Source: a virus. From it: 38,669 bases of DNA. Position numbers and translations under genes: made by a program. Where the stretch lies: positions 1 to 38,669 of IMG/VR virus record IMGVR_UViG_3300009551_000033. One strand, written 5' to 3'. This document shows positions 1,331 to 10,312 of the stretch, piece by piece. The stretch's first letter is position 1, and every line of letters starts with the position of its first letter. A model generated the notes under the pieces. That model was not told the origin of the DNA. It saw only the letters and a list, made by a program, of their open reading frames with translations, and did not search any database.

Positions 1331-1638
1331 ACGTCAAACAACAGCAAGCAGAACATCTGGAATATCTGATGACCATTGGCCGTGGTGGCGAAATGGGCAT
1401 TGGTGGTCTCATCAAATCGCCAGAAGATGAGGCAATTTATCGCCGCCACATCGAATGGATTGCAGAGGCGATCCGTGAAGAGCAGCACGCCCGATCTATC
1501 GCAATGTGCGTTGGCGTCTGCGATAGCGTTGCAGAAGCAGGTAACGAGTTTGGGCGTGGTGCCGAAGAGTGCGCGGACAACTTGCACAAATACATCCCGG
1601 ATGCATACAAGGCCAAGTATCCGAGGGGTGAAGAATGA
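1327..1638 (+). CDS. Phage protein, unknown
   Basis: A protein of 103 residues preceded by GGAGAGG. It begins MNVKQQQAEHLEYL and has a Gly-rich segment (GRGGEMGIGG) followed by an acidic helical region. It is coupled to the preceding small gene by an ATGA overlap and to the next by four bases. It resembles the small soluble hypothetical proteins of phage early arms, but I cannot name a domain. Confidence 0.72.
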   Translation: MNVKQQQAEHLEYLMTIGRGGEMGIGGLIKSPEDEAIYRRHIEWIAEAIREEQHARSIAMCVGVCDSVAEAGNEFGRGAEECADNLHKYIPDAYKAKYPRGEE

Positions 1639-2159
1639 CGACCCCCATCGCCTGGCCTGAAGCGCAGCGCATCTGCGACATACCGGAGGTGCGCGAATCA
1701 CTGGAAAAGTTTGCTGCTGACGCGCACGACGAGAACATGCTGGCCATGGTCAGCGCGATCATGGGACATGCATTCACCCAAGGGCGCGCAGCAGGGCTGG
1801 AGGAAATCATCGACATGCTGGACAAGTTCGGCACGTTGAAATACCGCGCTGGATGCTCAACCATCAAGACCAGCCAAGAACTGCTGGAACAAGCGCATGC
1901 ATATCGCCACATGATCCACGAAGCGCTTGCAAACCTATCCCCCACCACCTCTGATGCAGGGAAGGATGATGCACTGCTGACCATTGCTCGCGATGCGCTG
2001 GAAGAAATCGCGCTGGCCGGTATGTCCGGCAGCGGACAGGAAAGCGAAGAAGGCATGCGCGATTGGCATGCACGCCGCGCCTGGGAATTCATCGGTATCG
2101 CTGCTCGTGCGAAAACCGCCATTGACGCAGCCATCGCCGCGCAAGGGGAGGGTAAGTGA
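1635..2159 (+). CDS. Phage protein, unknown, helical
   Basis: A protein of 174 residues overlapping its neighbours by four bases on each side. The sequence is predominantly helical and acidic, with a long central helix (GLEEIIDMLDKFG) and no predicted membrane segment. The order and overlaps place it in the same transcription unit as the DpdA-like gene that follows. I see no catalytic motif. Confidence 0.72.
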   Translation: MTTPIAWPEAQRICDIPEVRESLEKFAADAHDENMLAMVSAIMGHAFTQGRAAGLEEIIDMLDKFGTLKYRAGCSTIKTSQELLEQAHAYRHMIHEALANLSPTTSDAGKDDALLTIARDALEEIALAGMSGSGQESEEGMRDWHARRAWEFIGIAARAKTAIDAAIAAQGEGK

Positions 2160-2911
2160 TTCACTATCACGGACTTCCGATCACACCGGCCACAGCAGCT
2201 CTGCGCGCAATTGATGGCGGCCATGCTTTTGTGTCGTTCCAGCACCCCGAGCAACTGACAATCGCACTGGAAGCATCGCAGTCATTTGCGGTGGACAACG
2301 GGGCATTCTCAGCATGGCGTAGCGGAAAACCTATCACCGACTGGTCGCATTACTACGCGTGGGTTGGTGAGCTTCATCGTTATCCAAGCTTTGATTTTGC
2401 CGTGATCCCCGATGTGATTGATGGCGATGAAGTCGCAAATGATGCCCTGTTAGAAGAATGGCCGTGGCGAGAAAAATCGCCATGGGTCGGCGCTCCAGTC
2501 TGGCACCTGCATGAATCCCTGGAGCGCCTTGAGCGGCTTGCTTTTGCGTGGCCTCGTATCTGCCTCGGAAGTTCTGGCGAGTTCGCACAAATCGGCACGG
2601 CTGCATGGTGGACACGGATGGCAAAGGCAATGGCCATTGTATGCGACCGACAAGGTAGACCAATTTGCAAGCTGCATGGCCTTCGTATGCTCGACCCGGA
2701 AGTTTTCAGTCGCTTCCCCTTCTCTTCGGCTGACAGCACGAATATCGGGCGCAACGTGGGTATCGACTCAGCATGGCGCGGTACTTACACCCCGCCGACG
2801 AAGGAAGCACGGGCCGCATTGATGCGTGAGCGCATCGAAGCCCACCAGTCGCTGACGTTTTGGGACCGCCAGCATGCACCGATTCAAGAATCACTATTTG
2901 GGAGCCCATAA
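2156..2911 (+). CDS. tRNA-guanine transglycosylase / DpdA-like protein
   Basis: A protein of 251 residues. Three conserved-looking blocks match the TIM-barrel transglycosylase pattern: AVDNGAFSAW (Asp47, like the DSGG(F/Y)Q loop), FAVIPDVIDGDE (Asp86) and HGLRMLDP followed by SADSTN (Asp193, where the nucleophilic Asp sits). GSSGEFAQIG may form the base pocket. The Cys/His zinc site of bacterial Tgt is not seen. Phage proteins of the DpdA type put 7-deazaguanine bases into DNA as protection against restriction. No preQ0 synthesis genes (folE, queD, queE, queC) are present, so the substrate would have to come from the host. Family placement is my inference from motifs. Confidence 0.6.
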   Translation: MIHYHGLPITPATAALRAIDGGHAFVSFQHPEQLTIALEASQSFAVDNGAFSAWRSGKPITDWSHYYAWVGELHRYPSFDFAVIPDVIDGDEVANDALLEEWPWREKSPWVGAPVWHLHESLERLERLAFAWPRICLGSSGEFAQIGTAAWWTRMAKAMAIVCDRQGRPICKLHGLRMLDPEVFSRFPFSSADSTNIGRNVGIDSAWRGTYTPPTKEARAALMRERIEAHQSLTFWDRQHAPIQESLFGSP

Positions 2912-3720: not shown

Positions 3721-3899
3721 ACTATCAAGATTTCCTGATGCGTTACGAGGCGTACTGCCTTGATCAGCTACGACTTGAGCCTCGCGAGAAAGGAATGCGG
3801 TTTTGGTTTGATCAGCAAAAAATGGTCATTGATGAAATGAGGCATTTTGCAAAGAAATCCAAGTTGGATTTTCCAGCAGAAGAAGGAGGGAAATCGTGA
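3717..3899 (+). CDS. Small phage protein, unknown
   Basis: A 60-residue, highly charged protein rich in aromatic residues (MNYQDFLMRYEAY). It overlaps the preceding gene by four bases. The last codons contain the AAGGAGGG ribosome site used by the methyltransferase-like gene that follows. No domain recognised. Confidence 0.7.
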   Translation: MNYQDFLMRYEAYCLDQLRLEPREKGMRFWFDQQKMVIDEMRHFAKKSKLDFPAEEGGKS

Positions 3900-4471
3900 G
3901 CGTTGCGGTTCTCTTCGCACGCCAGGATAGCGTCTACAAGACGCTGCCGGAATGCGATGTGTACGACATTGACCGCGATGCGCGTACATGGCCAGGCGGA
4001 TATCCTGTGGTGGCCCACCCTCCCTGCCGAGCATGGGGCCGGATGCGCCAATTTGCCAATCCGCGCGACGACGAAAAATCTCTAGCCCTTTTCGCTTTGG
4101 CCAAAGTTCGCACTTATGGCGGCGTTTTGGAGCATCCGGCAGAGTCTTCACTATGGGTTGAGAAGATGTTGCCAAGACCTGGCCGCGCACCAGATCAATA
4201 TGGCGGATATTCAATCCAGATTGACCAGTTCCATTTCGGTCATCGTGCAGAGAAATCGACATGGCTGTATATCGTCGGCGTTCATCCGGATGATTTGCCG
4301 GTCATTCCGAAACGCGAAGGAAAACCTACGCATTGCGTGCGCCCGACGAAGAATTATCCGCGTCTACCCTCAATTACGAAGCCTGAGCGTGAGCATACAC
4401 CAGAACCGCTGGCGCGCTGGCTGGTAGCAGTAGCAATCCTGGCTGGCAAAAAAGAAAGGAAAGCAGCATGA
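3896..4471 (+). CDS. Cytosine-C5 DNA methyltransferase-like protein, short form
   Basis: A protein of 191 residues starting at GTG 3896 with a near-perfect AAGGAGGG site. AHPPCRAWG (Cys44) resembles the PPC catalytic loop of C5 methyltransferases, GGVLEHP (Glu79) the ENV motif, and CDVYDIDRDA the motif-II loop. FGHRAEKSTWLYIVG resembles the conserved segment before the target-recognition region. The SAM-binding FxGxG motif and most of the recognition domain are absent, so it may be a degenerate or non-classical enzyme. It lies downstream of the DpdA-like gene, suggesting a shared role in DNA modification or anti-restriction. Confidence 0.55.
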   Translation: MSVAVLFARQDSVYKTLPECDVYDIDRDARTWPGGYPVVAHPPCRAWGRMRQFANPRDDEKSLALFALAKVRTYGGVLEHPAESSLWVEKMLPRPGRAPDQYGGYSIQIDQFHFGHRAEKSTWLYIVGVHPDDLPVIPKREGKPTHCVRPTKNYPRLPSITKPEREHTPEPLARWLVAVAILAGKKERKAA

Positions 4472-5564: not shown

Positions 5565-5665
5565 ACCGCCTCCTAATCCTCCTGTGGAAAACAGGCTACT
5601 ACATACTCTTCGGAATACCTGATTGGGTGAGGGAGAGGAAGAACCGGAAGAAGGAGCAAGGATGA
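5558..5665 (+). CDS. 35-residue membrane protein
   Basis: A short frame overlapping its upstream neighbour by seven bases and the next ATG by four. AAGGAG lies upstream. Residues 4-24 form one hydrophobic aromatic-rich segment (LLILLWKTGYYILFG), followed by a strongly basic tail (RERKNRKKEQG), which by the positive-inside rule should stay in the cytoplasm. A possible small inner-membrane effector; function unknown. Confidence 0.6.
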   Translation: MLDRLLILLWKTGYYILFGIPDWVRERKNRKKEQG

Positions 5666-6306
5666 ACGCAGCAGTGAAAGAGCGACCGATTTTGTTTTCC
5701 GCGCCGATGGTGCGCGCAATCCTGTCCGGCGACAAGACCCAGACTCGGCGCATCATCAAGCAGCCGCCGAACGATCCGCATCATCTCCGCATCATCGGGC
5801 CGTCCGGCGCAGTGCATTACACCCGACCGGACGGCGACAAGCTGGTGGCAGAGGCCCGACAGACGCAAGGCTACCGCGTCCTGACATGTGCGGAATGGCT
5901 GGCCGAGCAGTGCAAGCATGGTCGGCCCGGTGATCGACTTTGGGTGAGAGAAACATGGGGCTACAACCCGGATCATCCCGGCATGGCCTGGCATGCCTGC
6001 TACCGCGCAGATCCTGGCATGGAATACGACGGCATCAAGTGGAAGCCCAGCATTCACATGCCTCGAGCAGCATGCCGGATCAAGCTGGAAATCACTGGCG
6101 TGCGCGTGGAGCGCCTGCAGGACATCAGCGATTTCGACGCTGAAGACGAAGGGACGCGCGGCTGGGCCGCCGAGGTGCAGAAAAATGGGAACAAGTTCTC
6201 CAGCATCCGCAGCGCTTGGCAGGCCATGTGGGAATCCATCAACGGTGCCGGCAGCTGGCAGGCTAATCCCTGGGTGTGGGTGCTGGAATTCAGGAGGATC
6301 GCATGA
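5662..6306 (+). CDS. ASCH-domain-like phage protein
   Basis: A protein of 214 residues, ATG at 5662 chosen from the ATGA overlap. It shows the usual blocks of this phage family: RPILFSAPMVRAILSGDKTQ, then KTQTRRIIK, GDRLWVRETWG, IHMPRAACRI, VERLQDIS and a closing NPWVWVLEFRR. ASCH domains have a PUA-like fold expected to bind RNA or modified bases, and some are nucleoside-modifying hydrolases. Its position in an operon with a DpdA-like and a methyltransferase-like gene fits a role around modified nucleic acid, but this is inference. Confidence 0.7.
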   Translation: MNAAVKERPILFSAPMVRAILSGDKTQTRRIIKQPPNDPHHLRIIGPSGAVHYTRPDGDKLVAEARQTQGYRVLTCAEWLAEQCKHGRPGDRLWVRETWGYNPDHPGMAWHACYRADPGMEYDGIKWKPSIHMPRAACRIKLEITGVRVERLQDISDFDAEDEGTRGWAAEVQKNGNKFSSIRSAWQAMWESINGAGSWQANPWVWVLEFRRIA

Positions 6307-6626
6307 GCACAGATCGCGAGCTGTTGGAGATGGCTGCCAAGGCGGCGGGGCTCCACCATGACGGTGTTGGATACGCATCTGCAACTGGAATGCCTATCAA
6401 TTGGAACCCGCTGGAAGACGATGGCGATGCAGGCCGACTTGCTATGACTCTTTGCGCCGCAGGGAAAATGAGAATCCAGATCACGGAGCAAAGCATCACC
6501 TGCTTTTACGAGCAGGATGGCGTATTCGTCCCTTGGAGCTGGGGATACGAAACATGCACGCTTTCGGAAGCATTCTGCAAATGCATCACTGGTGCAGCAG
6601 CCGAAATCGGGAGAAAAATGCCATGA
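6303..6626 (+). CDS. Phage protein of the WNPLxDDGDAxRLA type
   Basis: A 107-residue protein; ATG 6303 follows a strong AGGAGG site. It contains the INWNPLEDDGDAGRLAMTL segment seen in small proteins of many lambdoid phages (DUF2591-like). The N-terminus MSTDRELLEMAAKAAG is a helix. Function unknown. It overlaps the following short frame by four bases. Confidence 0.6.
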   Translation: MSTDRELLEMAAKAAGLHHDGVGYASATGMPINWNPLEDDGDAGRLAMTLCAAGKMRIQITEQSITCFYEQDGVFVPWSWGYETCTLSEAFCKCITGAAAEIGRKMP

Positions 6627-6721
6627 GCCGCCGCCCAAGACGAGACGAGCAGCGCCGAGCACGTGAGAGGGGGAAAGGCTGTGATGCCTTTCCTGTTTAT
6701 GCCAAATTAGGCGTACCGTAA
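6623..6721 (+). CDS. 32-residue basic peptide at end of the early arm (uncertain)
   Basis: A short frame starting at an ATGA overlap with GGGAG upstream. Its first half is very arginine-rich (MSRRPRRDEQRRARERG). It runs through a terminator-like hairpin and overlaps by 25 bases the 3' end of the convergent lectin-like gene. The overlap junction supports it; the location within the terminator speaks against it. Confidence 0.4.
   Translation: MSRRPRRDEQRRARERGKGCDAFPVYAKLGVP
6672..6699 (+). terminator. Terminator-like hairpin between convergent operons
   Basis: GGAAAGGC (6672-6679) pairs perfectly with GCCTTTCC (6686-6693) around a six-base loop, followed by TGTTTA. The U-tract is short, so strength is uncertain. 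Position between the ends of the rightward early arm and leftward late arm is where a terminator is expected. Confidence 0.5.
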
Positions 6722-7530
6722 TTTGCTGCGGCCCAAACTGCGATTTCCTCAATTTGACCGTTTGTAAGAACGGGCTGTGCATATTTTAATACCCGATAAA
6801 TGTTTCCAGTGTGATACTGAGTAAATGCACTGGAAACTAATCGAGCGCCAATGACCACATTGTTAATACCAGTGGCTAGGTCCGCTGTTCCTGTAGATTG
6901 ATATGGCGTGCCAACTCCATCAAAGAACAAATAAGAGTTGCCAATACCTGGCAAATACGTCCCGATGGCAATATGAATATTTGTATCGTTACCTTGTCCT
7001 GAATTGGCATCCGCAATCAAGCTATTGTTGTCTGCTTTTCGTGCAGTAACATAAGAACCAACATTATTAATCTTTAGAATTTCTTGACGGTTCGTACCAC
7101 TTGCAGAAGCACTGTTCATTTCTCCAAATAGACCAGTAGTCATTGCCAAAGCTGGGCCAGCACTATCAAAAATTACTACCTGCGTGCCTCCTGCCTGACC
7201 ACCTAGAGCATTCATATATTGACTAGACGTTCCCAAAAACGAAGCAACATATTTACCATTTACAAGGGTACGAGTAGGACCGGACCCAGATGTAAGGGCT
7301 AAAGACGTACCATCAGCGCCTGCAAGCGTTGTAATGTTGTTACCAGTCATAGTAACTAGCGACGTATTATCAGGATCCCATGAGTAAAGAAGTGCAGGAC
7401 TACCGCTAATATTCGGCGCTGGCGTTCCAAATCCAAATGTCTGAATAACTGGAATGGTGTTACCGCCGCTTGTACTTTTTGTGCGGTTATGATTACGATA
7501 CGTTCCGTGACGCCATACTCGATAAGTCAT
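6697..7530 (-). CDS. Putative lectin-fold (LamG-like) virion or receptor-binding protein
   Basis: A protein of 277 residues, the last gene of the late operon. The pattern is like concanavalin/LamG-type jelly rolls in phage fibres: SPALLYSWDPDNTSLV, GKYVASFLG, IHIAIGTYL, then TGNIYRVLKYAQPVLTNG and a C-terminal helix IEEIAVWAAANYG. It contains many Asn, Thr, Gly and Ser residues. Its location after the lysis genes, like separate adhesin genes in some podoviruses, suggests a cell-surface-binding accessory. Specific ligand unknown. Confidence 0.6.
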   Translation of the reverse strand: MTYRVWRHGTYRNHNRTKSTSGGNTIPVIQTFGFGTPAPNISGSPALLYSWDPDNTSLVTMTGNNITTLAGADGTSLALTSGSGPTRTLVNGKYVASFLGTSSQYMNALGGQAGGTQVVIFDSAGPALAMTTGLFGEMNSASASGTNRQEILKINNVGSYVTARKADNNSLIADANSGQGNDTNIHIAIGTYLPGIGNSYLFFDGVGTPYQSTGTADLATGINNVVIGARLVSSAFTQYHTGNIYRVLKYAQPVLTNGQIEEIAVWAAANYGTPNLA

Positions 7531-7533
7531 GAT

Positions 7534-8055
7534 TTAACTCTGGCTTAAATTTTTGATAGTTTCGTCTTTGGCCTTATTAGACCGAGTAGTACCAAATTCA
7601 AAATTGTAGATGGTATCTAAATAACCAAGGAATCGACCAAGCACCAGCGTCGCAATCCCTTTCATGTACTCGTTGATATTCGGATCTTTCCAGACAAGCC
7701 AGACCAGTCCGCTAATCATCGCTATAGCCAAGAAAAACATAAAGTCTGCGCGGTAGTTTTTTTGACCAGTTTGAACGATTTTCACATCCCTATCGCGGGC
7801 GCTTTGCACATCAAGCAAGTAAGCTTTTTCGATATCAATCTGTTGCGCAGCGATGGCTTGTTGAAACTCCAAAACCTTGTTTGGATCGGCCTGAATGGCT
7901 GCTAAAGCTGTCTGACCATCTGACGTACCCGTAACAGCCTTTGCAACGTCAATTACTTTTCCTGCTACGTCTGCAGCTTTATCACTTCCAGTGATCCATT
8001 TTGCAATGACAGGAACGAATTGAGAAAGGCCAAGCGCCAAACTGATAGGATCCAT
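7534..8055 (-). CDS. Holin, 3TM/GTA-type
   Basis: A protein of 173 residues. The ATG at 8055 shares a base with the endolysin stop codon (TGATG), so it was chosen over the upstream in-frame start. The N-terminus DPISLALGLSQFVPVIAKW and the AADVAGKVIDVAKAVTG block match 3TM holins of the gene-transfer-agent type. A clear membrane helix lies around FMFFLAIAMISGLVWLVW, with a second weaker one after it. It would permeabilise the inner membrane to release endolysin. Confidence 0.75.
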   Translation of the reverse strand: MDPISLALGLSQFVPVIAKWITGSDKAADVAGKVIDVAKAVTGTSDGQTALAAIQADPNKVLEFQQAIAAQQIDIEKAYLLDVQSARDRDVKIVQTGQKNYRADFMFFLAIAMISGLVWLVWKDPNINEYMKGIATLVLGRFLGYLDTIYNFEFGTTRSNKAKDETIKNLSQS

Positions 8056-8573
8056 CACAATACCTCTTTCGCTTTTGCCCACAAGGCTTGTCGGTCCTCT
8101 AGGCCATTTGTACCGCCATTAATCCGCTTGGTAATCGCTAGAAAATTTCCTTGATCAGCTAGCTCATTCAACCCGCGATCTTTCCAAAACCATGCGGCTG
8201 ATCGGCTTGCATTTACCGGCTCTTCAACTACTTCCGGATGCTCCAAACAGTCAATACCAAGAGCCATCATCAACGCAACATAATTAGCTTTTCCGGTGAT
8301 CTGAATCAGCCCTCGACCTTTGTACTTGACTCCATCGCCTGGCATCGTGTTTCCAAGGTCTTTACGGCCCTCATACGCTGTTCCAGAGGCTAACTCTCGT
8401 ACATATCTTAGCTGACCGGATTCATGGCCTATTTGAGCGATAAAAGCCGCTTGGCGTGCTTTCGTGTTAATCTCAAATTCAGCCATTGCGTCTGATAAAG
8501 GAACGGCAAATATGTCCGCCTTCTGACCGGCTTGCGGCATTATTTTTCTGAGTTGATCAGCAGTCAGCGCCAT
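8055..8573 (-). CDS. Endolysin, glycoside hydrolase family 19 (chitinase-like)
   Basis: A protein of 172 residues, the usual size of single-domain GH19 endolysins. AFIAQIGHESGQL carries the probable general acid (Glu51) and VRELASGTAYEGR the second acid (Glu60). KYKGRGLIQITGKANY and the SAAWFWKDRGLN segment are family hallmarks. There is no signal peptide, so it would depend on the holin encoded directly downstream. It would cleave the glycan strands of peptidoglycan. Confidence 0.92.
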   Translation of the reverse strand: MALTADQLRKIMPQAGQKADIFAVPLSDAMAEFEINTKARQAAFIAQIGHESGQLRYVRELASGTAYEGRKDLGNTMPGDGVKYKGRGLIQITGKANYVALMMALGIDCLEHPEVVEEPVNASRSAAWFWKDRGLNELADQGNFLAITKRINGGTNGLEDRQALWAKAKEVL

Positions 8574-8740
8574 TCTTTAACTCCACCATGATGAGAACAT
8601 GTCCCAGACCTATTTTTGCTCAGGCTTACGGTTCCATCGTTACATATTGCTTTAATGCCTTTTTGACTTGTGTATATATCAAATAGTATATATATACAAA
8701 CGAGTATTACAACAATGAAACACGCCGATGCGTATCTCAT
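8564..8740 (-). CDS. DUF3761-like small membrane or exported protein
   Basis: A 58-residue frame between the coiled-coil membrane gene and the endolysin. It shares one base with the upstream stop (TAATG) and overlaps the endolysin start by ten bases. Residues 6-20 are strongly hydrophobic (ACFIVVILVCIYILF); the rest carries CNDGTVSLSKNRSGTCSHHG and then GV.W, a recognisable DUF3761 pattern with two Cys and two His. It probably enters the periplasm tethered by its N-terminus. A spanin-like or accessory lysis role is inferred from position only. Confidence 0.7.
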   Translation of the reverse strand: MRYASACFIVVILVCIYILFDIYTSQKGIKAICNDGTVSLSKNRSGTCSHHGGVKEWR

Positions 8741-9030
8741 TACTTTCTCTCTAAAAGCCGATCTACCTTTGCAGAAACGTCTTTGATCAAAGATTTCACT
8801 TCTGATACAGCGTTAGAAGTTTCAACTTTGTTCTCTTTAACCGTTTCTCGTAATTGATCATTTGCACCACGTTGATATGTGAGAGCAAGTTCAACATTGC
8901 TCAATCGCACATTCATGCTGACATATACAGCAAGCATTGATCCTGCCAACCCGATAATAGAAACCAGGCCAGCAATCGTAACTTTCCTGTCCAAAGACCA
9001 ATTCTGAGTATTCAAGGATACGGAATCCAT
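8740..9030 (-). CDS. Membrane-anchored coiled-coil protein of the lysis region
   Basis: A protein of 96 residues. One transmembrane helix at about residues 17-37 (VTIAGLVSIIGLAGSMLAVYV) is followed by a long charged heptad-type helix to the end. This is the outline of Rz-like or antiholin-type membrane proteins, but no specific family is clear. It lies at the head of the lysis group and overlaps its upstream neighbour by 19 bases. Confidence 0.65.
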   Translation of the reverse strand: MDSVSLNTQNWSLDRKVTIAGLVSIIGLAGSMLAVYVSMNVRLSNVELALTYQRGANDQLRETVKENKVETSNAVSEVKSLIKDVSAKVDRLLERK

Positions 9031-9191
9031 TTTTCACCATCCCATTGCCATTCGCCCGGCGTCAAATTGAAATCCTCTGGCTCTTCTCTTTGAATGTCGC
9101 AGTTCGGCGGGATCTGCCCAATCCTACAATTTGAAGAGGCATATCCCCAACTCATTAAGACATTTGTGACCGGGTCTCTATAGGAATACAT
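9012..9191 (-). CDS. Small acidic protein next to the tail fibre
   Basis: A 59-residue frame with a good AAGGAG site ahead of ATG 9191, between the fibre gene and the lysis genes. It is acidic, has two Cys near the middle, and ends in TPGEWQWDGEKWIPYP. It could be a tiny tail-fibre chaperone or virion accessory, but there is no proof. Kept for the ribosome site, gap-filling position and codon pattern. Confidence 0.55.
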   Translation of the reverse strand: MYSYRDPVTNVLMSWGYASSNCRIGQIPPNCDIQREEPEDFNLTPGEWQWDGEKWIPYP

Positions 9192-9202
9192 TTATGTTCT
9201 CC

Positions 9203-10312
9203 TTAGCAATCGCCATTGAATACGCCATACCCACTCACATAAATAGTCGCTGATACAGCCGAAACATTAGCTGGGCTTGCAATGTTTTGGTTTAGGTATA
9301 AAAATGTTTGGCCAACGTTAGGCATATTGCAAATCTTGCCTGAAGTAAATGACAATGAAGATGCACTAGCGACATAAACGTTATTAGACGAATAATCAGA
9401 TCCAGACAAAATTCTAGTGATAAAAGTCACAAGACCAGTGCCATTAGCATTTGTCGTTGCAGATGCGCTGAACTGAATGTCAAATCTTCCAGAAACAGCA
9501 GAAGTCGGGACTTGACTAGTTACTGTTACCGAAGTTTCTGTAGTCGCACCGCCAGCATTCAATACTATTTGTTGTTGATCATATGAAATATATGAACCCC
9601 TGCTTCTTGTTCGCAGAAGGTTGCTTGAAGAGTTCCAGAAATAAGCACCTGCAAATGCCCATGCGATATACCCTGGCGGCAACGCTGGCGCATTAGGAGG
9701 AGCGGTCAAAGATGAAATCGTGGCAATAGTTGTACCATTTGAAATGAAATACAGGTACACCCAGCTACTAGCAGGGAATGCTGCTGTTTGATCTCGCCCA
9801 TTGATGATCGGGCCAGCAGTAGACAAATTGTTAGTAATTACACCTGTGTTTGCAAATGTGTAACTTTGCCCAAGATTATTCCGAGTTGTCACGCTTACCG
9901 CTGACATATCATATTGAGTCAGCGGAGAAGAAGAATTATTTGCGCCTACATATCCGAGAACTCGACCAGCAGGCGTAGTCAACGATGAGACACTAGAAGG
10001 CCCCGATGCACCTTGTAAATTGTCGATTGTCCAGATAGGATTACTAGGAGGGTCCGTATCAGTAGCAGGCGCAAGAACAACTTTGTAAAGCTGACCCTGC
10101 GTAAACCATAATTCCGTTGGCGGCTCACCCAATGCATTCAAAATGACAGGGTTTGGATTAGCAACAGTACCCGTAGAATCGGTATAGGTGTTTTGCTTAG
10201 TGCTGGTGCTTCCAGCAACATAGAAGAACATCTTTCCGCCAACAAGCGGATTGCCAGCAGCATCAACTTGTTGAGGTTTGGGTCCAAACGGGGAAACACT
10301 AACTGTAGGCAT
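9203..10312 (-). CDS. Tail fibre / tailspike-like protein
   Basis: A protein of 369 residues with AAGGAT before the ATG. The first 90 residues, with GNPLVGGKMFFYVAGST, TYTDSTGTVANPNPVILNALGEP and LYKVVL, form the particle-binding domain typical of podovirus tailspikes. The rest is a Ser/Thr/Asn-rich beta domain with no visible catalytic motif. It would bind the host surface and is a target of host-range variation. It is smaller than the P22 tailspike (667 residues), so the receptor-binding end is unrelated. Confidence 0.82.
   Translation of the reverse strand: MPTVSVSPFGPKPQQVDAAGNPLVGGKMFFYVAGSTSTKQNTYTDSTGTVANPNPVILNALGEPPTELWFTQGQLYKVVLAPATDTDPPSNPIWTIDNLQGASGPSSVSSLTTPAGRVLGYVGANNSSSPLTQYDMSAVSVTTRNNLGQSYTFANTGVITNNLSTAGPIINGRDQTAAFPASSWVYLYFISNGTTIATISSLTAPPNAPALPPGYIAWAFAGAYFWNSSSNLLRTRSRGSYISYDQQQIVLNAGGATTETSVTVTSQVPTSAVSGRFDIQFSASATTNANGTGLVTFITRILSGSDYSSNNVYVASASSLSFTSGKICNMPNVGQTFLYLNQNIASPANVSAVSATIYVSGYGVFNGDC

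Follow-up and report, generated by a model that had tools for sequence, protein, structure and literature searches.

A lone dpdA gene in a P22-like virus contig probably encodes a DNA transglycosylase that uses host-made or imported 7-deazaguanine

We analyzed a window of 38,669 bases, a linear virus contig that is possibly incomplete, and find that it encodes a singleton DpdA, a protein of an already described kind. We judge it rather likely that this small phage DpdA swaps guanine in DNA for host-made or imported 7-deazaguanine, and that it does so sparsely. Many phages carry a lone dpdA gene; what is new here is gene context, namely the pairing of dpdA with a transporter gene and a queC-queE-queD run behind a dpdA relative.

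The dpdA-like open reading frame (Table 1) is a genuine gene. A strong Shine-Dalgarno sequence (AAGGGGAGGGTAA) precedes its start codon, and comparison with 78-81%-identical relatives gives a pN/pS of 0.16-0.20, indicating purifying selection. Using tblastn, we found relatives of the protein in 102 phage records, including temperate lambdoid and P22-like phages of Salmonella, Shigella, E. coli, and Klebsiella as well as Vibrio phages, and at least 586 viral contigs carry relatives. One short record, OR850331.1 (1719 bp, 'Staphylococcus phage SA 1298 Kay'), holds a Salmonella-phage-type dpdA; its label is probably wrong. Phage Orion, which also carries a singleton dpdA, has unmodified DNA (PMC6884629), and a broken dpdA copy is found in Herbaspirillum aquaticum, as might be expected if the window gene were an inactive remnant retained by chance. 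The low pN/pS, the invariance of all motifs, and the hundreds of relatives make this barely credible, and the host of Orion lacks the pathway. In the H. aquaticum copy (L069, 8001-8319), the last third of dpdA is left as a 99%-identical 3' fragment with different DNA upstream, either a recombination scar or a decayed prophage gene. Among the dpdA loci fetched, we found no relatives of the gene upstream of the window dpdA, so this gene is not a conserved partner of dpdA. We likewise rejected any conserved partner beside the window dpdA, as none of its immediate neighbors recurs next to dpdA elsewhere.

Table 1. Coordinates of the dpdA-like gene, its upstream neighbor, and conserved codons in the window.
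Feature	Position	Strand	Description
Upstream gene	1635..2159	+	174 aa, product of unknown function; 4 bp overlap (GTGA) with dpdA start
dpdA-like gene (P0001)	2156..2911	+	251 aa, GTG start; phrog_887 match, TGT-like AlphaFold model
D47 codon (VDNGAF)	2294..2296	+	Invariant; counterpart of Asp in TGT DSGGF and 9g DpdA LDSGAF
D86 codon (IPDVIDG)	2411..2413	+	Invariant; proposed guanine-recognition Asp, from motif order; TGT correspondence inferred
H117 codon (VWHLHES)	2504..2506	+	Invariant; present in 9g too (CFHAGE)
GSSG loop, residues 138-141	2567..2578	+	Occupies TGT GGLSVGE loop position
H174 codon (KLHGLR)	2675..2677	+	Invariant; on 9g DpdA His196, DpdA-typical histidine (PMC6884629)
D193 codon (SADSTN)	2732..2734	+	Invariant; proposed nucleophile (9g CDSSS, TGT FDCVMPTRN)

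The window protein matches phrog_887 (queuine tRNA-ribosyltransferase) with an E-value of 8.6e-72, as does the DpdA of phage 9g (E = 2e-98), and a profile of the window family finds 9g DpdA with collinear motifs (hmmsearch E = 1.3e-16; hhalign 7.4e-10). Its identity to DpdA is 38.8% for phage MED16 (over 94%), 35.3% for phage 7-11, and 26% for 9g, the relatives with chemistry behind them all being less than ~40% identical to it. The protein matched no family in Pfam, NCBIfam, or PADLOC, including the bacterial TGT family PF01702 in Pfam, and searches of PDB sequences with protein and profile queries returned nothing credible. When we used hhalign with five host TGTs, only the DSGGF block aligned (p = 0.014), a marginal sequence link to bacterial TGT. 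The two proteins are alike in active-site motif order and, by prediction, in their barrel fold, but the window protein is shorter, lacks the zinc subdomain, and has very low sequence identity to bacterial TGT.

Across 54 diverse relatives, the invariant positions are D47, W54, D86, P114, H117, H174, L176, R177, P188, D193, and S194. The window protein and 9g DpdA have the same motif order (LDSGAF, CFHAGE, KVHGF, and SCDSS in 9g), which is also that of TGT (DSGGF, FDECTPY, GGLSVGE, MGVGTPEDL, and FDCVMPTRN); the residue roles that we propose are carried over by analogy from TGT. DpdA2 lacks a residue equivalent to 9g His196 (PMC6884629), whereas in the window protein H174 aligns with it. The CxCxxC zinc motif of bacterial and archaeal TGTs is absent from the window protein, and also from the DpdA proteins of 9g, MED16, and 7-11. 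This absence says little, since 9g DpdA, a proven inserter of preQ0 into DNA, also lacks the motif; phage DpdA proteins usually have no zinc site.

An AlphaFold prediction from 54 input sequences (the window protein plus viral or genome-contig relatives) yielded a confident model (pLDDT 94.1, pTM 0.91), in which eight strands terminate at or near conserved residues. In Foldseek searches with this model, TrpA and other barrels headed the list and archaeosine TGT came 21st. After re-alignment with VIA-align, all 50 matches listed were TGT, archaeosine TGT, or Cap10 (Z 14.2-15.4, rmsd 3.2-4.9, 212-233 residues aligned), and the predicted fold is a TGT-like barrel without the zinc subdomain. A first-pass annotation had called the protein DpdA/Tgt-like after noticing three acid-containing blocks and no zinc site. 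The three blocks (D47, D86, and D193) are present and invariant, the zinc motif is indeed missing, and the assignment is borne out by the PHROG in common with 9g DpdA and by the TGT-like predicted fold. The two proposed catalytic aspartates (D47 and D193) and the DpdA-typical histidine are further features that it shares with phage DpdA.

The top match from VIA-align was Cap10 (9ntn_A, Z 15.4), equaled by TGT; fold alone cannot separate the two. In type IV CBASS, the TGT-like Cap10 modifies another protein with a deazaguanine, and the match raises the idea that the window protein works in this way too. We find that idea hardly plausible: the window ORFs include no QueC-like Cap9, CdnD partner, or CD-NTase family, no conserved target gene adjoins dpdA in relatives, where the linked genes are for precursor synthesis or transport, and dADG is present in relatives' DNA.

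Measurements in related phages point to DNA as the substrate. Group 3, or 'singleton', DpdA was described from 76 phages with dpdA and without preQ0 genes, including a separate gamma-proteobacterial cluster (Hutinet 2019, PMC6884629). The window has the same gene content, with dpdA but no preQ0 or G+ genes among its 63 ORFs, in a record that may be incomplete. Salmonella phage 7-11, a member of group 3 without preQ0 genes, has 50 dADG per 10^6 nt in virion DNA (PMC6884629). Pantoea phage MED16, with dpdA alone, has 354 dADG per 10^6 nt, or 0.13% dADG, and its DNA is still cut by most enzymes tested (PMC8306585). By arithmetic on the published values, these levels correspond to ~33 marks per double-stranded genome in MED16 and ~9 in 7-11. 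They lie in the same low range as those produced by 9g DpdA alone in E. coli from host preQ0 (84-790 dPreQ0 per 10^6 nt), while 9g DpdA plus gat-queC gives tens of thousands of dG+ (PMC6884629). Since 9g DpdA modifies little alone and far more with gat-queC, the low levels fit a limited precursor supply. The low dADG of MED16 and 7-11 was measured in phages with intact dpdA and could come from the host.

The window protein resembles each of these relatives in part. It shares with 7-11 DpdA a PHROG, 35% identity, a length of ~235-250 aa, the lack of a zinc motif, and a phage without preQ0 genes; unlike 7-11, the window phage is P22-like with a probably beta-proteobacterial host. In MED16, as in the window, dpdA is the only such gene, and the two proteins have all motifs in common, but MED16 is another phage type and also carries an adenine methyltransferase. 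The likeness to 9g DpdA extends to phrog_887, collinear motifs, the His196 equivalent, and the missing zinc motif, although 9g DpdA is longer (317 aa), only 26% identical, and accompanied by folE-queD-gat-queC-queE.

The dADG in the virion DNA of two relatives' phages (PMC6884629, PMC8306585) also makes an RNA target less likely than DNA, and in this respect the alternative offered by the first-pass annotation, that the protein acts on RNA, loses ground. A TGT-like enzyme acting on host or phage tRNA, for instance so as to change decoding in the infected cell, would agree with the TGT fold found by VIA-align, with the name of phrog_887, and with the presence of Tgt and the Q pathway in hosts. 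We nonetheless consider it unlikely, as the phages that carry the closest characterized relatives have modified DNA, 9g DpdA fails to complement an E. coli tgt mutant (PMC6884629), the TGT zinc subdomain is missing, H174 corresponds to the DpdA-typical His196, and we found no tRNA gene in the window.

For the favored activity on DNA, we infer the substrate, preQ0 as the base, the residue roles, and the benefit to the phage. By the mechanism of TGT, D193 would attack C1', guanine would leave, and the precursor would enter, with D47 and D86 providing acid/base catalysis and base recognition. The base put in would be a 7-deazaguanine, preQ0, perhaps converted later to ADG. Its source would be the host queuosine pathway (folE-queD-queE-queC) or an imported precursor, as the window phage appears to make none. 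Phage DNA would end up sparsely marked, with either the supply of precursor or the choice of sites as the limit, and the marks may protect it from some host nucleases.

The window also carries genes for a P22-like portal and coat, Erf, NinG, and an O-like initiator, and a near-identity DNA search of phages with its first 25 kb found no match. Prophages in Cupriavidus, Burkholderia, and Roseateles carry relatives of 72-80% identity; with the Herbaspirillum aquaticum fragment, these indicate that the phage probably has a host in the Burkholderiales (Herbaspirillum or another). All five genomes with related prophages (one of them a remnant) encode FolE, QueD, QueC, QueF, and Tgt. Among the 63 window ORFs, we found no Pfam match to FolE, PTPS/QueD, QueE-like radical SAM, QueC, QueF, TGT, or Vut_1, and phage Que proteins and a VUT transporter profile used as queries gave no match in the window. 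The earlier statement that 7-deazaguanine pathway genes are missing thus holds for this possibly incomplete record, and the proposal made with it, that the phage takes host preQ0 or queuosine intermediates, gains support from the host precursor genes and from linked genes in relatives.

In L019 and L139, a dpdA relative of 69% identity is directly followed by queC (PF06508, E = 1.8e-38), a QueE-like radical SAM gene, and queD (PF01242, E = 1.2e-29). In L019 (IMGVR_UViG_3300037471_001733, 6001-10009), RdgC and a Mom-like gene come next, a possible combined DNA-modification island. A queE-like gene lies directly 3' of dpdA in L235, and a short queD-like gene directly precedes dpdA in Caulobacter phage DMCA (L073) and in L239.

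Many relatives carry their own YhhQ-like importer, which could supply the precursor. In 38 loci (37 plus Phleasolo), dpdA has a Vut_1/YhhQ-like gene no more than 300 bp away, and such a gene occurs nowhere else in 2.17 Mb; either of the two may come first, and the stop of one often overlaps the start of the other. At 80% identity, the 38 transporter-linked dpdA genes group into 13 clusters that are scattered across the tree; one cluster is L129, whose protein shares 72% identity with the window protein. As label counts on the tree show no clustering beyond chance, the transporter appears to have been gained and lost often. Reverse searches from the transporter found dpdA directly upstream in all 80 loci fetched, many of which are closely related to one another. 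Of ten transporters tested, nine score above the Pfam Vut_1 cut-off, and the best NCBIfam models for the linked transporters are queuosine precursor and preQ0/preQ1 transporters, with scores below cut-off. The small YhhQ/VUT-like membrane protein belongs to phrog_4899 (unknown function in PHROGs), and adjoins dpdA in L150, L055, L143, L001, L229, L240, and others. An exception is phage mEp021 (L323, 1429-2696), where the transporter gene has a cytosine-methyltransferase-like neighbor and the stretch read contains no dpdA. YhhQ-like transporters are known from phages with preQ0 genes, Vid5 (PMC6266253) and EC151 (PMC8310023), and YhhQ was reported not to correlate with any group (Hutinet et al. 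2019, PMC6884629). Within partial literature coverage, we found no prior report of the tight pairing of a YhhQ-like gene with a lone dpdA.

These linked genes also bear on the opposite activity, in which the protein would remove 7-deazaguanine from host or phage DNA and restore guanine, as a counter-defense against host dpd marking. TGT chemistry is a base exchange, the window has no synthesis genes, and one related host genome contains a QueD-QueC-TGT-like cluster, all of which would suit removal; the importers and the queC, queE, and queD genes beside relatives' dpdA serve insertion instead, and we regard removal as very improbable. For insertion, the reciprocal linkage to YhhQ-like genes and the one queC-queE-queD case suggest substrates of the preQ0 type and open the idea of precursor supply to testing. 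More tentatively, and with some doubt, dpdA and the small YhhQ-like transporter may form a mobile two-gene salvage cassette across many phages that, rather than shielding the whole genome, uses imported or host 7-deazaguanine to mark a small number of specific sites, with the window gene as its one-gene form.

Several other genes in the window drew our attention. The 191-aa product of 3896-4471 has an HPPCRAWG motif, with phrog_12600 as its main match and a weak match to the DNA-methyltransferase phrog_757 (E = 0.029), and may be a degenerate C5-methyltransferase. ORF 5623-6306 encodes an ASCH/PUA-like phage protein (phrog_874) with a weak ASCH match; such domains may bind modified bases. One ORF matches Cpn10 (GroES-like; E = 2.3e-15), here in a P22-like phage, and the Pfam scan gave a weak match to Asp/Arg beta-hydroxylase. 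Outside the window, Cupriavidus necator A5-1 (G002:C8:323216-326254) has QueD and QueC adjacent to a weak match to TGT, a possible bacterial dpd-type system.
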